Below, one piece after another: positions 2,702 through 27,656 of a stretch of DNA of 27,656 nt. A program made the translations under genes and the position numbers. Source of the DNA: a virus; the IMG/VR virus record IMGVR_UViG_3300013006_000108, positions 1-27,656 of that record, one strand, 5' to 3'. A model generated the notes under the pieces. That model saw nothing but the letters and a program-made list of their open reading frames with translations, had not been told where the DNA came from and searched no databases. Each line of letters begins with the position of its first letter. Positions within the stretch are counted from its first letter, which is position 1.

Positions 2702-4378
2702 ATGCAACTAGACCCTAGATTACAGGACTTTCGTAACTTTCTATTCATGGCTTGGAGCCATTTAGGTCTTCCTGCTCCCACAAAGGTTCAGTACCAGATC
2801 GCTGAGTACCTACAGCACGGGCCAAAGCGTTGCGTCATCCAAGCCTTTCGAGGCTGTGGTAAAAGCTATGTATCCGCTGGCTATGTCCTATGGAGGCTTC
2901 TTCTTGACCCCAAGCTAAACTTCTTAGTTGTGTCAGCCAGCAAAAGCCGTTCTGATGATTTCTCTACTTTCTGCTTGCGTCTACTAAGCGAGATGCCTCT
3001 GCTAGAACACCTAAAGCCTACTGAGGAACAGCGGTGCTCCAAGGTAGCCTTTGACATCAATGGTGCTCCAGCTTCACAGGCTCCTAGCGTAAAGAGCATT
3101 GGTATCACAGGTCAGATTACAGGTAGCCGAGCAGATGTAATTATTGCCGATGACGTTGAGGTTCTTAACAACTCCGCAACCGAGGGGATGCGTCACAAGC
3201 TGTCGGAAACCATTAAAGAGTTTGATGCGGTTATTAAGCCTCTTACAACCAGCAAAGTAATCTATCTAGGCACACCACAAAGCTACAACAGCATATACAA
3301 GATGCTTCCAGAGCGGGGGTTTAAAACTTGTGTTTGGCCTAGCAGGTTCCCTAGCGAAAGCGAGCGAATAGCTTACGGAGATTCTTTTTCAGTTGACTTG
3401 CGAGATGAACTGCATAACGACCCCACACTTCTAGGTAAGCCTACAGACCCCCAAAGGTTCAGCGAAGCAGACCTTATGGAGCGTCAAGCTAGTTATGGTC
3501 GCTCTGGGTTTGCCTTGCAGTTTCAGCTAAACACAAGCCTATCCGACCAGAACAGATACCCCCTTAAACTCTCCGACTTGATTGTGATGACCCTTAATCC
3601 AGACATGGGGCCACAGAAGGCTGTATGGGCATCTAGTCCAGAGCTTGCTTGGAACGAGTTACCCAATGTCGGCCTTAACGGAGACAGGTTTTACAGGCCA
3701 ATGAGTGTTGTAGAGCCTTGGGTCAAGTACGATGGCTGTTGCATGAGCATAGACCCCTCTGGAAAGGGCAGGGATGAAACAGCCTATGCGGTGGTCAAGA
3801 TGCTTCACGGACAGCTATTCTTGGCCGAAATAGGAGGCTTAATGGAGGGTTATAGCCCTAAAAGCCTAGAGACGCTGGCTGAAGTCGCCAAGAAGCATGG
3901 TGTAAACTCTGTAATCATCGAAGAGAACTTTGGTGGAGGTATGTTTACCAGCCTTATCAAGCCTGTATTCGCCCGTATACACCCGTGCAACATAGAGGAA
4001 GTCAGACACAGCAAGCAGAAGGAAGCCCGTATTATTGATGTCTTGGAGCCTGTTATGAGTAGCCATAAGCTTATTGTTGACTCTGATCTAGTACGAAAGG
4101 ACTATGCCGATTGTGATGTGCGTGGCTTAGACACAGCCCTTAAGTACAGCTTGTTCTACCAGATGAGCCGTATCACAAGGGATAGGGGTGCTTTGTCAAA
4201 CGATGATCGACTTGATGCTTTAGCGATGGCTGTGCAGTACTGGGTAGAGCAAATGGGTAGAGATACTGATTTAGCTTTAGTTGAACAAAAAGATCGACTT
4301 TTAGATGATGAGTTGGCTAAGTTTGCAGACAGCGTTTTTGGAAGAAAGCGCAAACAACAAACTTGGATGAATGTATAA
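2702..4378 (+). CDS. Large terminase subunit (T7 gp19-like)
   Basis: Packaging ATPase and nuclease, 558 aa (T7 gp19 is 586). The Walker A motif is FRGCGKS (about 49-55), Walker B is VIIADDVE (about 146-153), and a coupling-type motif IYLGTPQS follows near 187. The C-terminal RNase H-like nuclease shows MSIDPSGKGRDETAY with Asp351, a second acidic motif VIIEEN (Glu407/408), and DDRLDA (Asp501/502/505). All three acidic positions are present, so it appears active. AAGGCGGG lies just before the start. Its 3' end overlaps the following ORF by 8 nt. Confidence 0.95.
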   Translation: MQLDPRLQDFRNFLFMAWSHLGLPAPTKVQYQIAEYLQHGPKRCVIQAFRGCGKSYVSAGYVLWRLLLDPKLNFLVVSASKSRSDDFSTFCLRLLSEMPLLEHLKPTEEQRCSKVAFDINGAPASQAPSVKSIGITGQITGSRADVIIADDVEVLNNSATEGMRHKLSETIKEFDAVIKPLTTSKVIYLGTPQSYNSIYKMLPERGFKTCVWPSRFPSESERIAYGDSFSVDLRDELHNDPTLLGKPTDPQRFSEADLMERQASYGRSGFALQFQLNTSLSDQNRYPLKLSDLIVMTLNPDMGPQKAVWASSPELAWNELPNVGLNGDRFYRPMSVVEPWVKYDGCCMSIDPSGKGRDETAYAVVKMLHGQLFLAEIGGLMEGYSPKSLETLAEVAKKHGVNSVIIEENFGGGMFTSLIKPVFARIHPCNIEEVRHSKQKEARIIDVLEPVMSSHKLIVDSDLVRKDYADCDVRGLDTALKYSLFYQMSRITRDRGALSNDDRLDALAMAVQYWVEQMGRDTDLALVEQKDRLLDDELAKFADSVFGRKRKQQTWMNV

Positions 4379-6126: not shown

Positions 6127-6399
6127 CTACCTAGAGCCACTACTAAAGTAGTCACTACCGACCTTAGTTGTATAGGTACGAGGCCCATAATAGCTGTCGC
6201 CCTGCTTAATGGTAATTCCACCAGCACCAAAGTAGGTGTCACGAACCTTAGTGACAATTCCTGTGCCTGTATAGGCTGTGTTATTGACGATTGTAGTCGT
6301 CCCTCTGGACTGATGGGAGACCCCTAAGAACTCAGACCAGTTATCTTCAGCTTGTAAGGTTGCGGTTAGGAAGGTTAGAGCCAGTAATAGTGTTTTCAT
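6127..6399 (-). CDS. Secreted small protein on the minus strand
   Basis: A 90-aa protein with a textbook Sec signal peptide (MKTLLLALTFLTATLQA, predicted cleavage before EDN). The mature part, about 73 aa, is rich in Gly, Thr, Ser and Tyr and has short quasi-repeats (TGTGIVTKVRDTYFGAGG, IKQGDSYYGPRTY, TKVGSDYFSSG), suggesting beta-strands. It has no Cys. No family recognised. It is transcribed against the main gene direction, from its own promoter with a palindrome (6406-6434), and is followed directly by the 51-aa gene. Such isolated, self-promoted genes in temperate phages are often expressed from the prophage; that is inference. Confidence 0.65.
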   Translation of the reverse strand: MKTLLLALTFLTATLQAEDNWSEFLGVSHQSRGTTTIVNNTAYTGTGIVTKVRDTYFGAGGITIKQGDSYYGPRTYTTKVGSDYFSSGSR

Positions 6400-7272: not shown

Positions 7273-7299
7273 TTGACACACTTGCTCTTCCCGTATAGC
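7273..7299 (+). promoter_or_regulatory. Promoter of the amidoligase cassette
   Basis: A perfect -35 box, TTGACA (7273-7278), and a TATAGC -10 box (7294-7299) with a 15-bp spacer, slightly short. The -10 box ends 8 nt before the ATG at 7308, so the transcript would begin within about 2 nt of the start codon. The GGAGGG immediately before that ATG is too close to serve as a Shine-Dalgarno, supporting leaderless expression. Confidence 0.5.
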
Positions 7300-7307
7300 T
7301 TGGAGGG

Positions 7308-7415
7308 ATGGAAACACACAACGAAACTTGGACGCTGGTTGCCTTTGGGATTCTCTGCCTTGTGGCAGGATTTTTCTGGGGCGGTCTTTACGTCCTAACA
7401 AACCGAAAGAAATAA
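7308..7415 (+). CDS. Micro membrane protein, first gene of the amidoligase cassette
   Basis: A 35-aa protein: a short polar N-terminus (METHNETW), one hydrophobic segment of about 20 residues (LVAFGILCLVAGFFWGGLYV) and a basic tail NRKK, predicting a single membrane span with the C-terminus in the cytoplasm. It begins just after a good sigma70-like promoter and ends 7 nt before the amidoligase start. No family recognised. A second micro membrane protein closes the cassette, so the two may anchor or partner the enzymes. Confidence 0.5.
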   Translation: METHNETWTLVAFGILCLVAGFFWGGLYVLTNRKK

Positions 7416-7422
7416 ACACACT

Positions 7423-8385
7423 ATGAAAAAAACACTATTCAAGAAGGCAATCCGCTGGGGTGGCTTGGACATATCCAAATATCCTACGCCGTTAAAGATG
7501 AGCGTGGGTAGACATATGCGAAATATGGCCGAGGCTAACCGCTTCGACTCCACCGATTATCCTAGCGCAATCCCAACCGCACACATCCCGAACTTTCAAC
7601 GGGCTGGGGCTTGGCTCTGGTCTGCTATGCAAGAGAAGCGGAAAGTTTATCGCCCCCTAGTTTCGGTAATGAAACGGGAGATAAGTATTCGCCAACTACT
7701 AGACATAGAATCCCACAAGGGAGAGTTTGTAGGGGTAGAGATAGAGTTTTATATGCCCCGCACCAACAATGAAACGGCACAGCTTAAGGCTCGTTTCGTG
7801 GACATATGCCAAGATGGATCCATATGCCCTCCGAATGGAATGAGAGGCTTAGAGGCTCGGCTGGTATATGTTCGAGGAGTTAGTGAGAACCGCCTAGACT
7901 CATTCTGTGAAAAACTATCACTATCACAGGCACAGGTGAATCGCTCCTGCGGTCTGCACCTTCACCTTGACCAGAGAAACGTAAGCCGTGCAACAGCTTG
8001 GAGGAGATACCATCGCCTCGTGGGGTCTTTAAATTGGCTCAAATTAGCCGTCCCGCCGTCCCGCCTTGGTAACACCTACTGCAAATTAAACGAACTTGGA
8101 ACCAACCCCGAGAACTACGATAGGTACATGGCAATAAACTGGGAGGCCTATCGGGAGCACGGCACAATTGAAATCCGTTTATTAAACGGGACAACATCAG
8201 CCGATAAAATTAAACATTGGGTTTCCCTCTGCATTGGAGCAAGCCGAAACACTCTTCCCACGATTGAAGCGATGATGAATTGCCCCGAAATCCCACGGGA
8301 AGCAAAAGAATGGTTCATGGCTCGTAAACGCAAGTTTTATCCCTCCAATCAATCGGGGATGAATCAAGAAGGCTCAGAAGATTAA
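7423..8385 (+). CDS. Amidoligase (glutamine synthetase/COOH-NH2 ligase fold)
   Basis: A 320-aa protein with the signatures of the amidoligase family (Pfam Amidoligase_2, related to GCS2/GS-fold ligases): FVGVEIEFYMP (about 102-112, metal-binding acidic strand), CGLHLHLDQ (about 181-189, metal-ligand His pair), and REHGTIEIRLLNGTTSADKI (about 245-264). These enzymes use ATP to join a carboxylate to an amine, as in cell-wall or peptide-tag modification. The first 95 residues are basic and lack the signatures. It is followed, 30 nt later, by a class II glutamine amidotransferase that could supply ammonia. The leader AAATAAACACACT lacks a clear Shine-Dalgarno. The substrate cannot be told from sequence. 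Confidence 0.85.
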   Translation: MKKTLFKKAIRWGGLDISKYPTPLKMSVGRHMRNMAEANRFDSTDYPSAIPTAHIPNFQRAGAWLWSAMQEKRKVYRPLVSVMKREISIRQLLDIESHKGEFVGVEIEFYMPRTNNETAQLKARFVDICQDGSICPPNGMRGLEARLVYVRGVSENRLDSFCEKLSLSQAQVNRSCGLHLHLDQRNVSRATAWRRYHRLVGSLNWLKLAVPPSRLGNTYCKLNELGTNPENYDRYMAINWEAYREHGTIEIRLLNGTTSADKIKHWVSLCIGASRNTLPTIEAMMNCPEIPREAKEWFMARKRKFYPSNQSGMNQEGSED

Positions 8386-8415
8386 ACACAACCAACCAAG
8401 AAAGAAAAAAAACAC

Positions 8416-9150
8416 ATGTGCATCGCAATACTAAAAACTAAAAACGCAAAGATCAGCCGAAAGCATCTTGAAAACTCTGCCGAAAGTAATCCCGACGGGT
8501 TCGGGGTGGCTTGGACGGATGGCCAAAAACTACGCACCTTTAAAACTATGAAAGCGGGCGAATGGATTGACAAGGTGATGAGCTTGGAGAAATCCATCGC
8601 TATCATTCACGCCCGAATCACAACGCACGGAGCAACCGACTTGGAGAACTGCCACCCTTTCAGAGTGTCGAAAGGTCTGGCCTTTATTCATAACGGATGC
8701 TTGCCAATATCCACAGCCGACAAGCCGACACGCTCGGACACTTGGCATTTTAATCAAAAGGTGATGCAACCACTAGTGAGGGACACGGGAGGAATCACCG
8801 CCCCACTTGTCGAAATGCTTCACGAGTATTCCAAAGGCTCCAAGCTTTGTTTCCTAAACTATACTGGAAAGTTCATCATCATAAATGAATCCGCTGGGCA
8901 TTGGGCTGGTGGGGTCTGGTACTCAAACGCATCCTACAAAAACTCTACCGACTGGTGGAAATGTGGTGGCTACTCGCTCCCGCCTATATCATCCTACGGA
9001 CGCTCTCCCGTGAAGATTGAAAAGGATTCTGGGGGAGCCGTACCGCTTGACGACGACGACACAATCGAGCGTATGATCGAGGAGGACGCAATCAAGAAAT
9101 GGGAACAGCGAGCCTTTCACAATGAGGACGTGGGGGAGTTATTTGAATGA
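8416..9150 (+). CDS. Class II glutamine amidotransferase
   Basis: A 244-aa Ntn-hydrolase. Met is followed directly by Cys2 (MCIAILK), the N-terminal nucleophile after Met removal. Other family motifs follow in order: NPDGFGVAW (about 25-33), IIHARITTHG (about 63-72, with the Arg that binds the glutamine carboxylate), NCHPF (about 77-81), FIHNG (about 90-94) and SDTWHFN (about 105-111). It would hydrolyse glutamine to glutamate and ammonia. The C-terminal 60 residues are acidic. No synthetase domain is fused, so the partner is probably the amidoligase upstream. A/C-rich leader; its stop overlaps the next ATG (ATGA). Confidence 0.88.
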   Translation: MCIAILKTKNAKISRKHLENSAESNPDGFGVAWTDGQKLRTFKTMKAGEWIDKVMSLEKSIAIIHARITTHGATDLENCHPFRVSKGLAFIHNGCLPISTADKPTRSDTWHFNQKVMQPLVRDTGGITAPLVEMLHEYSKGSKLCFLNYTGKFIIINESAGHWAGGVWYSNASYKNSTDWWKCGGYSLPPISSYGRSPVKIEKDSGGAVPLDDDDTIERMIEEDAIKKWEQRAFHNEDVGELFE

Positions 9151-9263
9151 CACCGCCAAGACTAGAAAGCCTCTGGGATGGTGTGAAGGTCTTAATCGTA
9201 GCGTGTTGGCTCTTCCTCGGGCTGATTGGCTACTTAAAAAACCAAAGCGATGACGGCGAGTAG
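9147..9263 (+). CDS. Micro membrane protein, last gene of the amidoligase cassette
   Basis: A 38-aa protein: an N-terminal amphipathic stretch (MTPPRLESLWDGV), one hydrophobic span (about 15-30, VLIVACWLFLGLIGYL) and an acidic tail (KNQSDDGE). It overlaps the amidotransferase stop by ATGA and has a good Shine-Dalgarno (GGGAG at 9134-9138, 8 nt before the ATG), which supports it as a real gene. No family recognised. The terminator-like hairpin begins 25 nt after its stop. Confidence 0.55.
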   Translation: MTPPRLESLWDGVKVLIVACWLFLGLIGYLKNQSDDGE

Positions 9264-9288: not shown

Positions 9289-9325
9289 AACGGGGAGTGG
9301 GTTCAAATCCTGCCCCCGTTTTTTT
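9289..9325 (+). terminator. tRNA-like hairpin terminator; candidate attP core
   Basis: A 7-bp stem AACGGGG (9289-9295)/CCCCGTT (9314-9320), one bulged A, a second 5-bp stem GTGGG/CCTGC (9297-9301/9309-9313), and the loop TTCAAAT (9302-9308), followed by T-run 9319-9325. As a hairpin it is a good intrinsic terminator for the cassette. The inner stem and loop match a tRNA T-arm consensus (GGTTCAAATCC), and the bases before it (ATGCAACCAAC) could be an anticodon loop and stem 3' strand, as expected for an attP core copied from the 3' half of a host tRNA gene. No complete tRNA can be folded from 9250-9321. Confidence 0.55.
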
Positions 9326-9405: not shown

Positions 9406-9519
9406 TAAAACCGCCAAAAAATCCCCCATACTTACTCTGAAAGGAATATAAAAAATATATATATTAAATATGATATATAAAAATACTACTTATTTACGAA
9501 GTAAATAGAAGATAATCTG
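9406..9519. other. A+T-rich segment with a palindrome
   Basis: Almost pure A/T from about 9440 to 9520, with an inverted repeat TATTTAC-GAA-GTAAATA (9491-9507). There is no reading frame. Such easily melted segments beside iterons occur at replication origins and at attP arms (bendable DNA); the sequence does not decide between them. Confidence 0.4.
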
Positions 9520-9558
9520 TATATATGATAGTTATATATGATAGTAAATTATGATAGT
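9520..9558 (+). repeat. Three tandem 13-bp iterons
   Basis: TATATATGATAGT at 9520-9532, the identical copy at 9533-9545, and AAATTATGATAGT at 9546-9558 (10 of 13 identical). They are in perfect tandem register and are followed by GGGCCACG. Candidate binding sites for an accessory factor (excisionase, IHF-like bending protein, repressor) or an origin protein. Confidence 0.75.
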
Positions 9559-9576
9559 GGGCCACGTTGGGCTGGC

Positions 9577-9672
9577 AATTACCTGTACGTTTTACCCGTG
9601 CGTTTATAAGATACGCTTATACTTTTCAAAGAGAGTGTTTTTCCCTTTGCTTTAATTACCTGTGCGTTTATA
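9577..9672 (+). repeat. Candidate integrase arm-type sites
   Basis: Three direct copies with consensus ACCYGTRCGTTTWTA: 9581-9594 within AATTACCTGTACGTTTTA (9577-9594), 9594-9608 (ACCCGTGCGTTTATA), and 9658-9672 within AATTACCTGTGCGTTTATA (9654-9672). They lie just upstream of the integrase operon, as arm-type sites often do. The third overlaps the promoter candidate of the gene at 9683, which would allow autoregulation by whatever binds here. Confidence 0.55.
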
Positions 9673-9674
9673 TT
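9647..9674 (+). promoter_or_regulatory. Candidate promoter of the integrase operon
   Basis: TTGCTT (9647-9652; 3 of 6), a 16-bp spacer and TATATT (9669-9674; 5 of 6). The -10 box ends 8 nt before the ATG at 9683, so this too predicts a leaderless mRNA; no Shine-Dalgarno precedes the ATG. It overlaps the third arm-type repeat. Confidence 0.35.
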
Positions 9675-9682
9675 CAGCAGAT

Positions 9683-9853
9683 ATGAAACACATAGCGATA
9701 ACCAAAGATAACTATTACAACCTGCGATTGCTTTACGACAACAGCATTTGCGAGGGAAAGAAACCAACCGATGTCGTCAACTGGAAAGGTAATGAGATTC
9801 TAGTTGGGTACTTAAAGTATGTAGTTGAATACATGAAAGGAATCGTACTTTGA
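9683..9853 (+). CDS. Small protein coupled to integrase
   Basis: A 56-aa protein from the ATG at 9683. An upstream in-frame GTG at 9662 lies inside the arm-type repeat and the -10 box, so I reject it as the start. The sequence (ITKDNYYNLRLLYDNSI, then VVNWKGNEILVGYLKYVVEYMKG) resembles a common type of small phage protein with a conserved GNEIL...YxKYxxEYxK ending; function unknown. Its position directly before the integrase would suit an excisionase or regulator, but no helix-turn-helix is obvious. Its TGA overlaps the integrase TTG (TTGA). Confidence 0.55.
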   Translation: MKHIAITKDNYYNLRLLYDNSICEGKKPTDVVNWKGNEILVGYLKYVVEYMKGIVL

Positions 9854-10833
9854 ACGGCTCCATTCAATCAACGGGTGATTCATTCGGAGTGTCATTCACA
9901 ACCAAAGGCAAGCGTATACGCAGACGTTTTGGTTCGATGACGCAAGCCGAGGGTTACCTAATGGACTTACGCAGGGCTTCCATAGCTGGTAAGCCTTTGC
10001 CCGAAACCGAAAGCAACCTTATAACTTGGAAAGAACTTAAAGACCAGACACTCGCTTTGGTTTGGAAGGGAGCTAAAAGCGAGAACACAAGTCGCCTCAA
10101 CACAGACCATATCGTGCGTTACTTCGGTAGTTGCACACCCGTAGCTCACTTCACCCAAGGAGACCTAGACAACTGGGTAGTATCCTTAAAGACGCTAGGT
10201 AACTCTGACGGGACTATTAACCGCAAGATGTCTTGCTTGAGCAGGATGTTACGCTTCGCCTTGCAACGGGGCTACATCAGCCATAGGTTCCACTTTCCAA
10301 TCAAGAAGGAAAGCAAAGGTAGAATCCGCTTCATAACTCAAGAGGAAGAAGCAGTCATCCTTGAGAAGGCAAGCGACAAGCTAAAGCCTTTGTTCACCTT
10401 TTTGCTCTACACAGGGGCAAGAGTTGGGGAAGCCTTGAAGCTGAGTTGGGTTGACTTAAACTGGACTAACAAGGTGGTCACGTTCTGGGACACCAAGAGC
10501 GGTGAGAGCAGAACAATCCCTATGACCCTTAAGGTGCTTAAGACTATGAGGGAGTTGACAAGAAACGGACTTGACGGCCCGTTTAGTGACATCAAGCAGT
10601 TCACAATCAACAGGACTTGGACAAGCATAAGAGACCAGATGAACTTAACTGCTGACAAAGAGTTTGTTCCTCACGCTCTTAGACATACTTGTGCAAGCAG
10701 GTTAATACAGCGGGGTGTACCGATTGTAGTTGTCAAAGAGTGGCTCGGGCATAAAACAATTCAGATGACCATGAGGTACGCACACCTAGCTCCTACAAAC
10801 CTGCTGGAAGCAGTCGGGGCGTTGGAGGATTAA
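9850..10833 (+). CDS. int: Tyrosine integrase
   Basis: Site-specific recombinase, 327 aa, apparently complete. The N-terminal arm-binding domain (about 1-45) has SFGVSFTTKGKRIRRRFG; a core-binding SAM-like domain follows (about 55-145), then the catalytic domain (about 160-327). Catalytic residues: Arg191 (YTGARVGEAL), Lys216 (DTKSGES), His275 and Arg278 (HALRH), His301 (WLGHKT) and Tyr310 (MRYAHL). The TTG start is chosen because it overlaps the preceding stop, because AAAGGAA lies about 8 nt upstream, and because the arm domain would otherwise be lost. Integrase just upstream of the RNA polymerase is the arrangement known from temperate T7-like phages such as some cyanophages and pelagiphages. 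Confidence 0.93.
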   Translation: MNGSIQSTGDSFGVSFTTKGKRIRRRFGSMTQAEGYLMDLRRASIAGKPLPETESNLITWKELKDQTLALVWKGAKSENTSRLNTDHIVRYFGSCTPVAHFTQGDLDNWVVSLKTLGNSDGTINRKMSCLSRMLRFALQRGYISHRFHFPIKKESKGRIRFITQEEEAVILEKASDKLKPLFTFLLYTGARVGEALKLSWVDLNWTNKVVTFWDTKSGESRTIPMTLKVLKTMRELTRNGLDGPFSDIKQFTINRTWTSIRDQMNLTADKEFVPHALRHTCASRLIQRGVPIVVVKEWLGHKTIQMTMRYAHLAPTNLLEAVGALED

Positions 10834-11811: not shown

Positions 11812-12095
11812 AAACCTTTGAAGTACCATTTAGAGATGTTTATTACATGAGTCATGGTGATGAAGACACAGCCCAATACATCAATGGGGTGGCTACCTTT
11901 GAGGTAGTTAAGGATAAGGAATGTCCCTTACGTTACATCGACTCCAATGATGTCTGGGCAAGTTCTCCGCTAGGTGCTTACCAAGTAGACACCGATTCAG
12001 ATGAGCACAGGACGCTTGTTCGTGTAGCCGTTGAGGATGATGAGAAGGTATGGAAGTCGGCTAAAAAGATTGCTAAAACAAAGAAGCTAATTTGA
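11808..12095 (+). CDS. Small acidic protein upstream of RNA polymerase
   Basis: A 95-aa protein, MKTFEVPFRDVYYMSHGDED at the start, acidic in the middle (NDVWASSPLGAYQVDTDSDE), with a basic C-terminal tail (KSAKKIAKTKKLI). It looks like a small beta-rich domain. No family recognised. Its TGA overlaps the TTG start of RNA polymerase (TTGA), so polymerase translation may depend on it. Confidence 0.55.
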   Translation: MKTFEVPFRDVYYMSHGDEDTAQYINGVATFEVVKDKECPLRYIDSNDVWASSPLGAYQVDTDSDEHRTLVRVAVEDDEKVWKSAKKIAKTKKLI

Positions 12096-14350
12096 GCTTA
12101 ACGCAAACACAACTAGACCATAAGGCAGTATACGAAGCACAACTAAAGCGAGACAAGGCCAAGGCTAGGAATGTCTCTTCTGGTAGGGAGAGCTTATCTG
12201 GTGGTCAAGGCTTCTTGTTACGCCATTCAGTTGCATCCGTAGCTGAGACAATAGCCCTATGGATTGATAAGGCCCAGAATTCTCCTGGCCCCAAGCATAA
12301 ATCGGTTGCTTTGATGGTGCAACTAAAGCCCTTGGAGCTTTCGGCTCTTACCTGCCGTGCCGTGTTGAATGGCATATCCACCCAGAGAGCCTTTGCCTCT
12401 GTAGCCTTTGAACTAGGTCGGCTTGTAGAGCATGAGGCAAGGCTAAAGGAAAGCCCCAGTAAAGAGTGGAACAGAATAAAGAGGAGGATGAAACTACGCA
12501 AGGGGCATAGACACAAGATGCAGTCGGCTTTCCGTGGGATGAGCAACAAGACTATATCTTGGGGTACGATTGAGAAGGCTTCAATAGGTGGTGTTCTCAT
12601 TGAACTCTTTATCAAGAGCACAGGGCTTTGTGAGGTGGTGACCACAAGGACTAGTAAGACTAGGATGAACTACATTGTTGCAACAAAGTCCTGCTCCGAG
12701 TGGATGAAGGAGTTTGAGGGTACGGAGGTGCTACGGCCCCTTATGCTTCCAAGGGTAGAGGCGGGTTCTGACCCCAATGTATTCTGGGTTAAGTGCAGGT
12801 CGAAGAAGCAACAAGCCCTTTACAAGACACAGCCAGAAGTTGTACAGGATTGCGTACAGGCTATGCAACAGGTGGCTTGGAGGATTAATACGGATGTGCT
12901 CGAAGTGCTGGATACCTATTACAAGAACGGGCTAGAGATTGGTGGTGAGTCTGTAAACTGCCACAAGGAAATCATAAGAGAGAACTTGGATGCCCTTACA
13001 CCAGAGCAAGCCAAGGACAGAATAAAGAGTATGTGGAGGTCGCATACCTACAATGTCTGGAACAGAGCCAGAGGCTACTTCATTACCCAACAGATTTTGA
13101 TGGCCAAAGAACTTAAAGGCCAGCCCTATTATTTACCCGTGCAACTAGACTTCAGAGGTCGGGTGTATTACCTACCTACTCATATTGGGCCACAGAGGGA
13201 TGACATCTCGAAAGCCTTGGGTGACTTTGATGAAGCCGTTCCTTTGACTGAGGAGGGCAAGTACTGGTTCAAGGTGGTGGGTAGTTCCCACTTTGGATGT
13301 GACAAGGTTAGCTATGAGGAGCGTGTAGCTTGGGCTGAATTGCATGATAGCGATATTAGAAAGGTCGTTGCTGACCCCTACGGGTGCAAGTGGTGGCATG
13401 AAGCAGACGAGCCTTGGCAGTTTCTTAGGTGGTGCTTTGCTTGGGTTAATGGAGCCGAAAGGTTCCCAGTATGTTTAGACGCTACAAGCAACGGGCTACA
13501 GATTTTATCCCTCCTTACAGGTGATGCAGAGACAGCCCTACTTACCAACGTATTGCCCAGCGATGTACCCCAAGACATCTATGGCCTCTTGGCTAGGAAG
13601 GTAGAACACTATCTATTGGGTACTCCAAGTGACATGGCTACCTTCTGGTTGCAACATGGGTGTAATAGGAAGCTGGTTAAGAGACCCGTAATGACCATCC
13701 CCTACGGAGTATCTAGGTATGGTATGTCCCAACAGCTAATAGAACAAACAGACTGCTCGCTAGTGCAGGGGTTGTTTCTTGCTGACTTAATAATCAAGGT
13801 GCTTGGTGAGATAGTGCAAGCCCCACAGGAAACTATGACTTGGTTGAAGCAACTGGCAAAGATACCAACAGACAACGGATGTCCTATGGTATGGTCTAGT
13901 CCTTCTGGCTTTCCAATATATCAACCTTACTTCGTGAGTAAAAGTAAGGCGGTCAAGTTGCGGATTGGTGACACCATTCGGTATATGAACTTAACCAACA
14001 AGATAACCAGCAAGCTCGACAGGGAAGCACAGATCAACAGCTTTGCTCCCAACTTCATTCACAGCCTCGATGCAAGTGTTGTTCATGTCTCCGTGCAGAG
14101 GATGAATAAGGCAAACATAAAAAGCCTCTTCACAATCCATGATTGTTTTGGTTGTCATGCAAGTCGTGTTCCTGCTATGAGGAAAGTTGTGGCAGAAACT
14201 ATGAGGGACATATTTAAAAATCCTTTGCTCAAAGCTCTTAAGACCGAAGTAGCCTCATCTATTAGTTTACCTACTAACTTCATTTTAGAGCCTTTCTACG
14301 GCGGTTTTCCTATTGACCAGATAATCCACAGCTTGTACCTTATTAAATAA
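12092..14350 (+). CDS. Single-subunit DNA-directed RNA polymerase (T7 gp1-like)
   Basis: A 752-aa T7-family polymerase. Key motifs: catalytic Asp463 (VCLDATSNGLQ; T7 Asp537), KRPVMTIPYG with Lys530 and Tyr538 (T7 Lys631/Tyr639), and NFIHSLDASV followed by TIHDCFG with His683-Asp684 (T7 His811-Asp812). LDFRGRVYYLP (about 352-362) is the conserved palm entry. It is about 130 residues shorter than T7 (883): roughly 74 are missing before the first catalytic Asp, mostly N-terminal domain, and about 57 after it, including the specificity-loop neighbourhood, so its promoters should differ from those of T7. The start is TTG overlapping the previous stop. It transcribes the replication and structural genes downstream. 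Confidence 0.96.
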   Translation: MSLTQTQLDHKAVYEAQLKRDKAKARNVSSGRESLSGGQGFLLRHSVASVAETIALWIDKAQNSPGPKHKSVALMVQLKPLELSALTCRAVLNGISTQRAFASVAFELGRLVEHEARLKESPSKEWNRIKRRMKLRKGHRHKMQSAFRGMSNKTISWGTIEKASIGGVLIELFIKSTGLCEVVTTRTSKTRMNYIVATKSCSEWMKEFEGTEVLRPLMLPRVEAGSDPNVFWVKCRSKKQQALYKTQPEVVQDCVQAMQQVAWRINTDVLEVLDTYYKNGLEIGGESVNCHKEIIRENLDALTPEQAKDRIKSMWRSHTYNVWNRARGYFITQQILMAKELKGQPYYLPVQLDFRGRVYYLPTHIGPQRDDISKALGDFDEAVPLTEEGKYWFKVVGSSHFGCDKVSYEERVAWAELHDSDIRKVVADPYGCKWWHEADEPWQFLRWCFAWVNGAERFPVCLDATSNGLQILSLLTGDAETALLTNVLPSDVPQDIYGLLARKVEHYLLGTPSDMATFWLQHGCNRKLVKRPVMTIPYGVSRYGMSQQLIEQTDCSLVQGLFLADLIIKVLGEIVQAPQETMTWLKQLAKIPTDNGCPMVWSSPSGFPIYQPYFVSKSKAVKLRIGDTIRYMNLTNKITSKLDREAQINSFAPNFIHSLDASVVHVSVQRMNKANIKSLFTIHDCFGCHASRVPAMRKVVAETMRDIFKNPLLKALKTEVASSISLPTNFILEPFYGGFPIDQIIHSLYLIK

Positions 14351-26157: not shown

Positions 26158-26340
26158 GTGTGGTTAGCAATATTTCAAGCTCTTGCGTATCTAGTCCAAG
26201 CTTGGGTATCTGCTTTGACGGGGAGGGCTGTTCTTGAAGTCAAGGCTTCTGACGGCTCTCCCCCGCCTCTGTATATTCGCAGGGCTTTTAACGACAGGGT
26301 GTTCGAGTTTATCAGAAGCAAAAAAAGTAGTATTCGTTGA
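26158..26340 (+). CDS. Small protein overlapping the lipoprotein gene
   Basis: A 60-aa protein from GTG: WLAIFQALAYLVQAWVSALT (hydrophobic, probable membrane anchor), then RAVLEVKASDGSPPP and a basic end (RRAFNDRVFEFIRSKKSSIR). It begins 5 nt after the holin-like stop. The lipoprotein starts inside it in the +1 frame and overlaps by 107 nt, the geometry of Rz/Rz1 gene pairs. It has no coiled coil, however, and is shorter than a usual inner spanin, so it may be only partly related or even spurious. Confidence 0.4.
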   Translation: MWLAIFQALAYLVQAWVSALTGRAVLEVKASDGSPPPLYIRRAFNDRVFEFIRSKKSSIR

Positions 26341-26518
26341 CGAATCTGGTGGTTTTGTTCGTCTTGGGCCTAATGTTACAGGCCAAGTTTATGTGTGGAA
26401 CGGGACTCATTGGGCATTGAGCCAGAATAAGATAAAGCTTCCCGAAGGATGGTATGCTGGCTCTGTAGGTGTGGATGCAAAGGAAGGGCTTGACAAAGCT
26501 CCGCAACCTAGTAAATAA
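26234..26518 (+). CDS. Lipoprotein, possible spanin component
   Basis: A 94-aa protein from a TTG with an excellent Shine-Dalgarno (GGGAGGG at 26221-26227, 6-nt spacing). A signal peptide of about 22 residues ends in the lipobox LLTTGC, followed by SSLSEAKK. The mature part has VVFVDESGGFVRLGPNVTGQ and VYVWNGTHWALSQNKIKLPE followed by GWYAG, a pattern (RLGPxVxGxVYxWNGxxWxLSxNKxxLPEGWY) that I recognise from small phage lipoproteins near lysis genes. It begins inside the upstream ORF in the +1 frame. Outer-membrane anchoring is likely; spanin function is inferred. Confidence 0.65.
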   Translation: MKSRLLTALPRLCIFAGLLTTGCSSLSEAKKVVFVDESGGFVRLGPNVTGQVYVWNGTHWALSQNKIKLPEGWYAGSVGVDAKEGLDKAPQPSK

Positions 26519-26625
26519 ACACTCAAGTTTTGGAAAAGCTTTCCTAAAGCCCCGACCCTCTGCGGAGGACAATCGCTGGAGCAAACAGATTGATCTACCA
26601 GAGCGAACAACCAAAGAATCGTTGG

Positions 26626-26684
26626 AGTTCGTTTTGAATCGTGTGGTTTGATCGAACTACGACATTAACAATAGAAAGATATAA
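26626..26684 (+). promoter_or_regulatory. Inverted repeat and candidate late promoter before the capsid gene
   Basis: Perfect arms AGTTCG (26626-26631) and CGAACT (26653-26658) are followed by CTACGACATTAACAATAGAA (about 26657-26676) and an A+T-rich leader to the ATG. T7 has its strong phi10 promoter here. TACGAC and ATAG of the T7 consensus are present but with spacing 2 nt too long. AATAGAA recurs at 9504-9510 and AATAGTAA at 5386-5393 and 5427-5434, so it could be a promoter core of this polymerase. Speculative. Confidence 0.25.
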
Positions 26685-26688
26685 TAAT

Positions 26689-27656
26689 ATGGCTCTAGCT
26701 ACTAATACTCTAGCCCGTCCAGGATCTAATCTTCCTGCGGGATCAGACAAAACAGAACTCTTTCTCAAAAAGTTCGCTGGCGAAGTACTGACGACTTTTG
26801 AGACCGAGGCTTTGTTTAAAGACCTCACAACGACCCGCACGATTGAGAACGGCAAATCTGCCCAATTCCCAGTTGTCGGAACGGCTGTGACCAAATATCA
26901 TACCTCAGGTGACTCTGTCATTGAAGGTACGAGCTACCTCAACAATATGTCGCACGTTGAGAAGGTTATCACAATCGAAGGATTGCTGACCTCCTCTGTG
27001 TTGCTGGCAAACATCGACGAAGCGATGAACCACTTTGATGTGCGTTCCATCTATTCCTCCGAAATTGGTCGTGCCTTGGCAAAAGCCTTTGATCGGGCGA
27101 TTGCACAGACGACTATTTCAGCGGCTCGTCAAGCCCACAGCTTCGGAACTAACGGCCCAGACGGAGATTCTGGAACATCCGATACTTTCGCGGCTCTTGC
27201 TAACTCAGTTGCAGTCACTAACTCTGGCACAGATGGTGCTGTGCTGGCGGGTGCGGTGCTTGCTGGACTGCGAAAGCTCGATGAACAAGATGTTCCTTCG
27301 GAAAACCGATACATCGCTGTTCGTCCTGCTCAGTACTGGCTCTTGTTGGATGCTCTCACAAAGGGCGACTTCAAGGCTCCTTATACTGGCAATTCTGGCA
27401 TCTTCGAGAACGGAAGGGTCGCTATGATCGGTGGTGCAACCATCGTGAAAAGCAACAACATTCCTTCTACGGATTTGTCGGGTGATACGACGATTCCAGC
27501 ACAAGGCACGGGCGGTTCACGCCGTCTCAACTTTGCGAACACGCAAGCGATTGTGTTCCATCCTGCCTCCACGGGTTGCGTCAAGCTCCTCGATGTGGCG
27601 GTTGAGAGCGAATACCAGATTGAGCGACAGGCGACCTTGATGGTTGCTAAGTACGC
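26689..27656 (+). CDS. Major capsid protein (T7 gp10-like), 3' end cut by the window
   Basis: Open from the ATG at 26689 to the last base, 322 complete codons (T7 gp10A is 345). The start MALATNTLARPGSNLPAGSD is followed by ELFLKKFAGEVLTTFE and SAQFPVVGTAV, the T7-group HK97-fold signature. Later come LDEQDVPSENRYIAVRPAQY, then VAMIGGATIVKSNNIP and AIVFHPASTGCVKLLDVAVE, typical for the P-domain and A-domain. Only about the last 20-30 residues should be missing. Weak purine-rich AGAAAG upstream. Confidence 0.95.
   Translation, partial: MALATNTLARPGSNLPAGSDKTELFLKKFAGEVLTTFETEALFKDLTTTRTIENGKSAQFPVVGTAVTKYHTSGDSVIEGTSYLNNMSHVEKVITIEGLLTSSVLLANIDEAMNHFDVRSIYSSEIGRALAKAFDRAIAQTTISAARQAHSFGTNGPDGDSGTSDTFAALANSVAVTNSGTDGAVLAGAVLAGLRKLDEQDVPSENRYIAVRPAQYWLLLDALTKGDFKAPYTGNSGIFENGRVAMIGGATIVKSNNIPSTDLSGDTTIPAQGTGGSRRLNFANTQAIVFHPASTGCVKLLDVAVESEYQIERQATLMVAKY

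Follow-up and report, generated by a model that had tools for sequence, protein, structure and literature searches.

Comparison with closely related phages indicates that the stretch of DNA studied here probably contains a moron-like accessory slot, in which two genes for membrane micro-proteins (micro1 and micro2) stay fixed while the two-gene cargo between them is exchangeable; the comparison holds one such swap, in one genome. The window – the whole 27.7-kb stretch (27,656 nucleotides) that was analysed, virus record IMGVR_UViG_3300013006_000108 – comes from a temperate T7-like podovirus, and its cargo consists of an amidoligase and a class II glutamine amidotransferase. The initial annotation had placed four genes here – micro1 (7308..7415), the amidoligase (7423..8385), the amidotransferase (8416..9150) and micro2 (9147..9263), all on the plus strand – and they lie as it described; its view of them as one self-contained system is not supported by the comparison. 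The slot reading corrects this tempting four-part view and offers a precise, testable cargo slot in temperate T7-like phages.

A probable slot and its cargo

Both micro-genes are complete in nine virus records, the window included, and in eight of these the enzyme pair lies between them. The ninth, the sister phage IMGVR_UViG_3300032281_000336 (L020), has both micro-genes and no enzyme pair between them. Aligned with another member of the lineage (L002), it shows 93% identity over 6141 bp, up to a point 16 nt past the micro1 stop; there follow ~1.8 kb of unrelated DNA, and similarity returns from within micro2 (85% over 93 bp, then 94% over 161 bp). The unrelated stretch codes for a DUF932 protein (PF06067, E 4e-24) and a GP88 protein (PF17338, E 7e-25). 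The start of micro2 overlaps the GP88 stop, mirroring the window, in which the micro2 ATG overlaps the stop of the amidotransferase. We considered the possibility that L020 is an assembly chimera formed through shared k-mers: such a chimera would still need reads that join the DUF932/GP88 cargo to micro1- and micro2-like sequence.

Close relatives thus differ in the genes that their conserved flanks enclose, as in a moron or accessory slot. A second variable zone separates micro2 from the terminator and holds one or two changing small ORFs in most relatives; in more distant integrase relatives, the position of the slot is occupied by other small genes. On the basis of this comparative gene content we take the stretch from terminase to integrase to be an accessory zone, in which micro1 and micro2 would be the stable ends of one slot. 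The ORFs of the second zone were seen in L003, L004, L006, L007 and L014 – one example is a 52-aa Cys-containing protein, MDDKKQQVG... – and are absent from the window and from L020.

We propose that the slot of this temperate T7-like lineage is bordered by the terminase/lysis region on one side and by the integrase on the other, its fixed left end being a candidate host-type promoter with micro1 and its fixed right end micro2, upstream of the terminator. Recombination at the conserved micro-genes would bring in two-gene cargo, the translation of which would be coupled to that of micro2. The micro-proteins themselves most likely have a role in the phage that is independent of the cargo, such as that of small membrane factors. 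Given that eight of nine records keep the enzyme pair, its linkage with the micro-genes may nevertheless be functional, and both cargos might need micro1 as a shared membrane adaptor, which would make "independent" the wrong word.

A broader version of the last idea holds that the micro-proteins are a general adaptor pair, through which varied cytoplasmic cargo enzymes could reach the inner membrane, so that the cargo changes and the adaptor stays. Such an adaptor would fit the conservation of micro1 and micro2 around two different cargos and the translational coupling that micro2 shows in each case, but DUF932 and GP88 proteins have no known membrane role and the cargos are only two in number; we regard the proposal as unlikely. 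A docking slot, in which the selected micro-genes provide homologous ends for effector swaps while the micro-proteins carry each cargo to the lysogen's inner membrane, strikes us as doubtful. Were it true, the phage lineage would gain interchangeable functions directed at the host surface or at host takeover.

The phage that carries the slot is represented by an incomplete genome, sister contigs reaching ~39 kb. Between the scaffold-like and tail fibre genes (26300-27656 and 1-70), neither a major capsid gene nor tail tube/internal virion genes could be clearly recognised, and for this reason ~11 kb seems to be missing from the record relative to the 39-kb relatives. Among named phages, the terminase (2702-4378) is closest to those of autographiviruses of Rhizobium, Pseudomonas, Pelagibacter and Roseobacter (up to ~59% identity), and the single-subunit RNA polymerase (12092-14350) to those of pelagiphages and Pseudomonas phage LUZ100 (28-30% identity). 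A tyrosine integrase (9850..10833, plus strand; PF00589, E 3.4e-30) stands beside the slot, and this place is constant: the same order recurs in relatives whose contigs span the integrase. Two scans of bacterial genomes for prophages or a host, made with the amidoligase and amidotransferase profiles, found no member of the window lineage; their single, distant match was a Bacteroidota MAG contig.

Three further features of this neighbourhood deserve mention. An ORF of 90 aa (6127-6399, minus strand), which begins much like a signal peptide, is oriented opposite to its neighbours and is 89-96% identical in most relatives. Repeated TTACCTGTGCGTTTAT-type motifs are found 5′ of the integrase (9570-9690) and may represent arm sites for the integrase, or else promoters of the phage. 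Several independent contigs of the lineage (L004/L180, L020/L182, L007 and L181) start or end at one AT-rich stretch between the terminator and the integrase (~9440-9560), possibly a physical genome end or an assembly break caused by a repeat.

Micro-genes, candidate promoter and terminator-like hairpin

The protein encoded by micro1 comprises 35 aa, with a G-rich span and a basic C-terminus, and that encoded by micro2 38 aa. A single hydrophobic span is present in each (Kyte-Doolittle maximum over 19 aa of 2.07 for micro1 and 2.13 for micro2), which fits the single-span protein originally noticed at each end. Both reading frames are open in all relatives that cover them, that is, in the window and nine related contigs. 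From pairwise substitution counts, pN/pS in frame is 0.185 for micro1, 0.168 for micro2 and 0.197 for the amidoligase, whereas the remaining two frames of the micro-ORFs give 1.2-2.9. Judged by this difference in substitution pattern, the micro-ORFs exceed chance and are genes under purifying selection.

Scans of IMG/VR with each micro-protein gave matches confined to the window lineage, nine further contigs apiece; two extra matches to micro1 (L027 and L028) were discarded as reading-frame coincidences in unrelated sequence. Neither protein had a significant match in Pfam, PHROGs, PADLOC or 50,697 named phage records, and terminase relatives at 45-58% identity have neither gene. Two undescribed families of membrane micro-proteins under selection are thereby added.

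The position of amide-forming enzymes between micro-ORFs also calls to mind a RiPP-like pathway, in which the micro-ORFs would supply the peptide that the enzymes modify. The sequences of these ORFs are, however, those of membrane spans and not of leader/core peptides, and we rejected the idea of a RiPP substrate because the micro-genes are intact and conserved in L020 without the enzymes; it must be considered extremely improbable.

A candidate sigma-70 promoter (7273..7301, plus strand; TTGACA – 17 nt – TAGCTT) precedes micro1 in the alignment of nine lineage members. The TTGACA (7273-7278) is present in eight of the nine, and TATCTT is the −10 in most. Of the TTGACA promoter first ascribed to the cassette, the hexamer is conserved, but the −10 of the window is a poor one, TAGCTT, and the window copy was not among the promoters listed by a consensus scan. 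Because the candidate promoter ends only 6 nt before the micro1 ATG, in the window as in most relatives, the micro1 transcript may be leaderless.

The accessory region is closed by an intrinsic-terminator-like hairpin with a T-run (about 9289..9325, plus strand), predicted at about −20 to −24 kcal/mol and conserved, with compensating stem changes, in all lineage members examined. The hairpin had been described as a terminator right after the cassette. The structure itself is conserved, but since variable ORFs separate it from micro2 in most relatives, it would end the region and not specifically the four genes. Its GGTTCAAATCC apex (hairpin at 9289-9320) resembles a tRNA T-loop and its stem covaries across relatives; ARAGORN did not call it a tRNA, and Rfam and tRNA searches gave nothing.

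The enzyme pair

The 320-aa amidoligase, a glutamine-synthetase-like carboxylate-amine ligase, matches PF12224 (Amidoligase_2; E 5.6e-16) with 59.6 bits against a curated cut-off of 22. Its acidic/His/Arg catalytic set – E106, E108, D131, E144, H179, R214, E250 and R252 – is invariant over 44 phage sequences. A structural model (mean pLDDT 69) gave, with VIA-align, a list of matches headed by glutamine synthetases, 171 residues being aligned to the human enzyme (Z 12.8, rmsd 3.4); a plain Foldseek search with the same model gave no significant match, and the glutamine-synthetase fold is thus a prediction of the second-look aligner. The 244-aa amidotransferase, of the class II (Ntn) type, matches PF13230 (GATase_4; E 8.4e-8). 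Its N-terminal Cys (C2) and the Arg/Asn-Gly/Asp pocket (R67, N93-G94, D108) are invariant over 37 sequences, and its model is predicted to share the fold of the GlmS glutaminase domain (1xff; Foldseek E 1.9e-7). The enzyme signatures and intact key residues of the initial annotation are borne out for both proteins.

From the families and their intact active-site residues, the predicted chemistry of the pair is the glutamine-dependent amidation of a carboxylate: the amidotransferase would free ammonia from glutamine, and the ligase would activate the carboxylate with ATP, yielding an amide. In line with a published hypothesis, the target is most likely a carboxylate of the host cell wall or surface, the amidation of which would hinder later phages (superinfection exclusion). 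Any specific substrate is put forward with much less confidence than the slot and its cargo. A search of a library of defence systems gave no meaningful match.

The pair is not new; it is widespread and already published for several phage groups. The amidoligase lies upstream of the amidotransferase, on the same strand and nearly always adjacent to it, in 50 of the 52 distant IMG/VR phage loci with an amidotransferase that we examined, and the same order is found in the window and in its close relatives that carry the pair; conserved pairing is thus evident. Named phages with the pair include the OM43 phages MEP401/402, the integrase-bearing Podoviridae isolate ctgrD200, Marvin-group mycobacteriophages and a human faecal phage. 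For the OM43 phages it was proposed that the pair might change the wall of the host and so keep out superinfecting phages (PMC10580990), a hypothesis whose source, as cited there, is Iyer et al. 2009. In RIO1-like podoviruses the pair has been termed a "peptidoglycan modification cassette" (PMC5498523), and LUZ24-like phages also have it (PMC3890496). The window adds a temperate, integrase-linked lineage to this widespread phage enzyme pair.

These distant loci bear directly on the view that the four proteins form a self-contained system, both micro-proteins anchoring the enzymes at the membrane to amidate a wall precursor. The four genes are conserved and tightly packed in eight of nine lineage records, and the overlap of the micro2 start with the amidotransferase stop points the same way. 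Among distant pairs, a TM-like small ORF directly 3′ of the amidotransferase is found in 6 of 46, compared with 6 of 141 control genes (one-sided p 0.045, a comparison that includes near-duplicate loci and doubtful GTG/TTG starts). Yet ~87% of these pairs have no TM ORF after them and >90% none before – a hydrophobic small ORF 5′ of the amidoligase occurs in 4 of 46 – and L020 keeps both micro-genes around DUF932 and GP88, without the enzymes. Co-occurrence of the micro-proteins with the pair, then, holds in the lineage with the exception of L020 and breaks down in most distant pairs; we think it improbable that the four proteins are one system. At three loci with the enzyme pair (L070, L073 and L075) a single-span small ORF, not recognisably related to micro2, overlaps the amidotransferase stop.

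Comparison with known systems

The published pairs (OM43 MEP401/402, mycobacteriophage Marvin, LUZ24-like and RIO1-like phages) consist of the same two families in the same order, adjacent or close, as in the window. The window pair differs in being flanked by two lineage-specific single-span micro-genes, beside the integrase of a temperate T7-like phage. Its amidoligase, moreover, is shorter, without the Cys-rich N-terminal segment that most distant amidoligases carry in the alignment consensus, and the window has neither the ATP-grasp nor the gamma-glutamyl cyclotransferase neighbour found in LUZ24-like phages. The initial impression that the four-part set was not a known one therefore needs dividing: the micro-gene flanks are undescribed in the literature as far as searched, but the pair is published, and with the same guess of cell-wall change and exclusion.

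A second comparison is with the right-end accessory genes of autographiviruses. In the Roseobacter phages CRP-125 and CRP-171, GP88 genes – the family found in the cargo of L020 – lie after the terminase near the right genome end; micro1 and micro2 were not found in these accessory regions. The likeness to T7 gene 19.5 is one of position and size only, and we claim no kinship. A third comparison is with the phage moron: like a moron, the slot holds accessory genes flanked by conserved modules, has a candidate promoter and a putative terminator of its own, and varies among close relatives. It differs from a moron in that its ends would themselves be conserved micro-genes, which persist while the interior changes.
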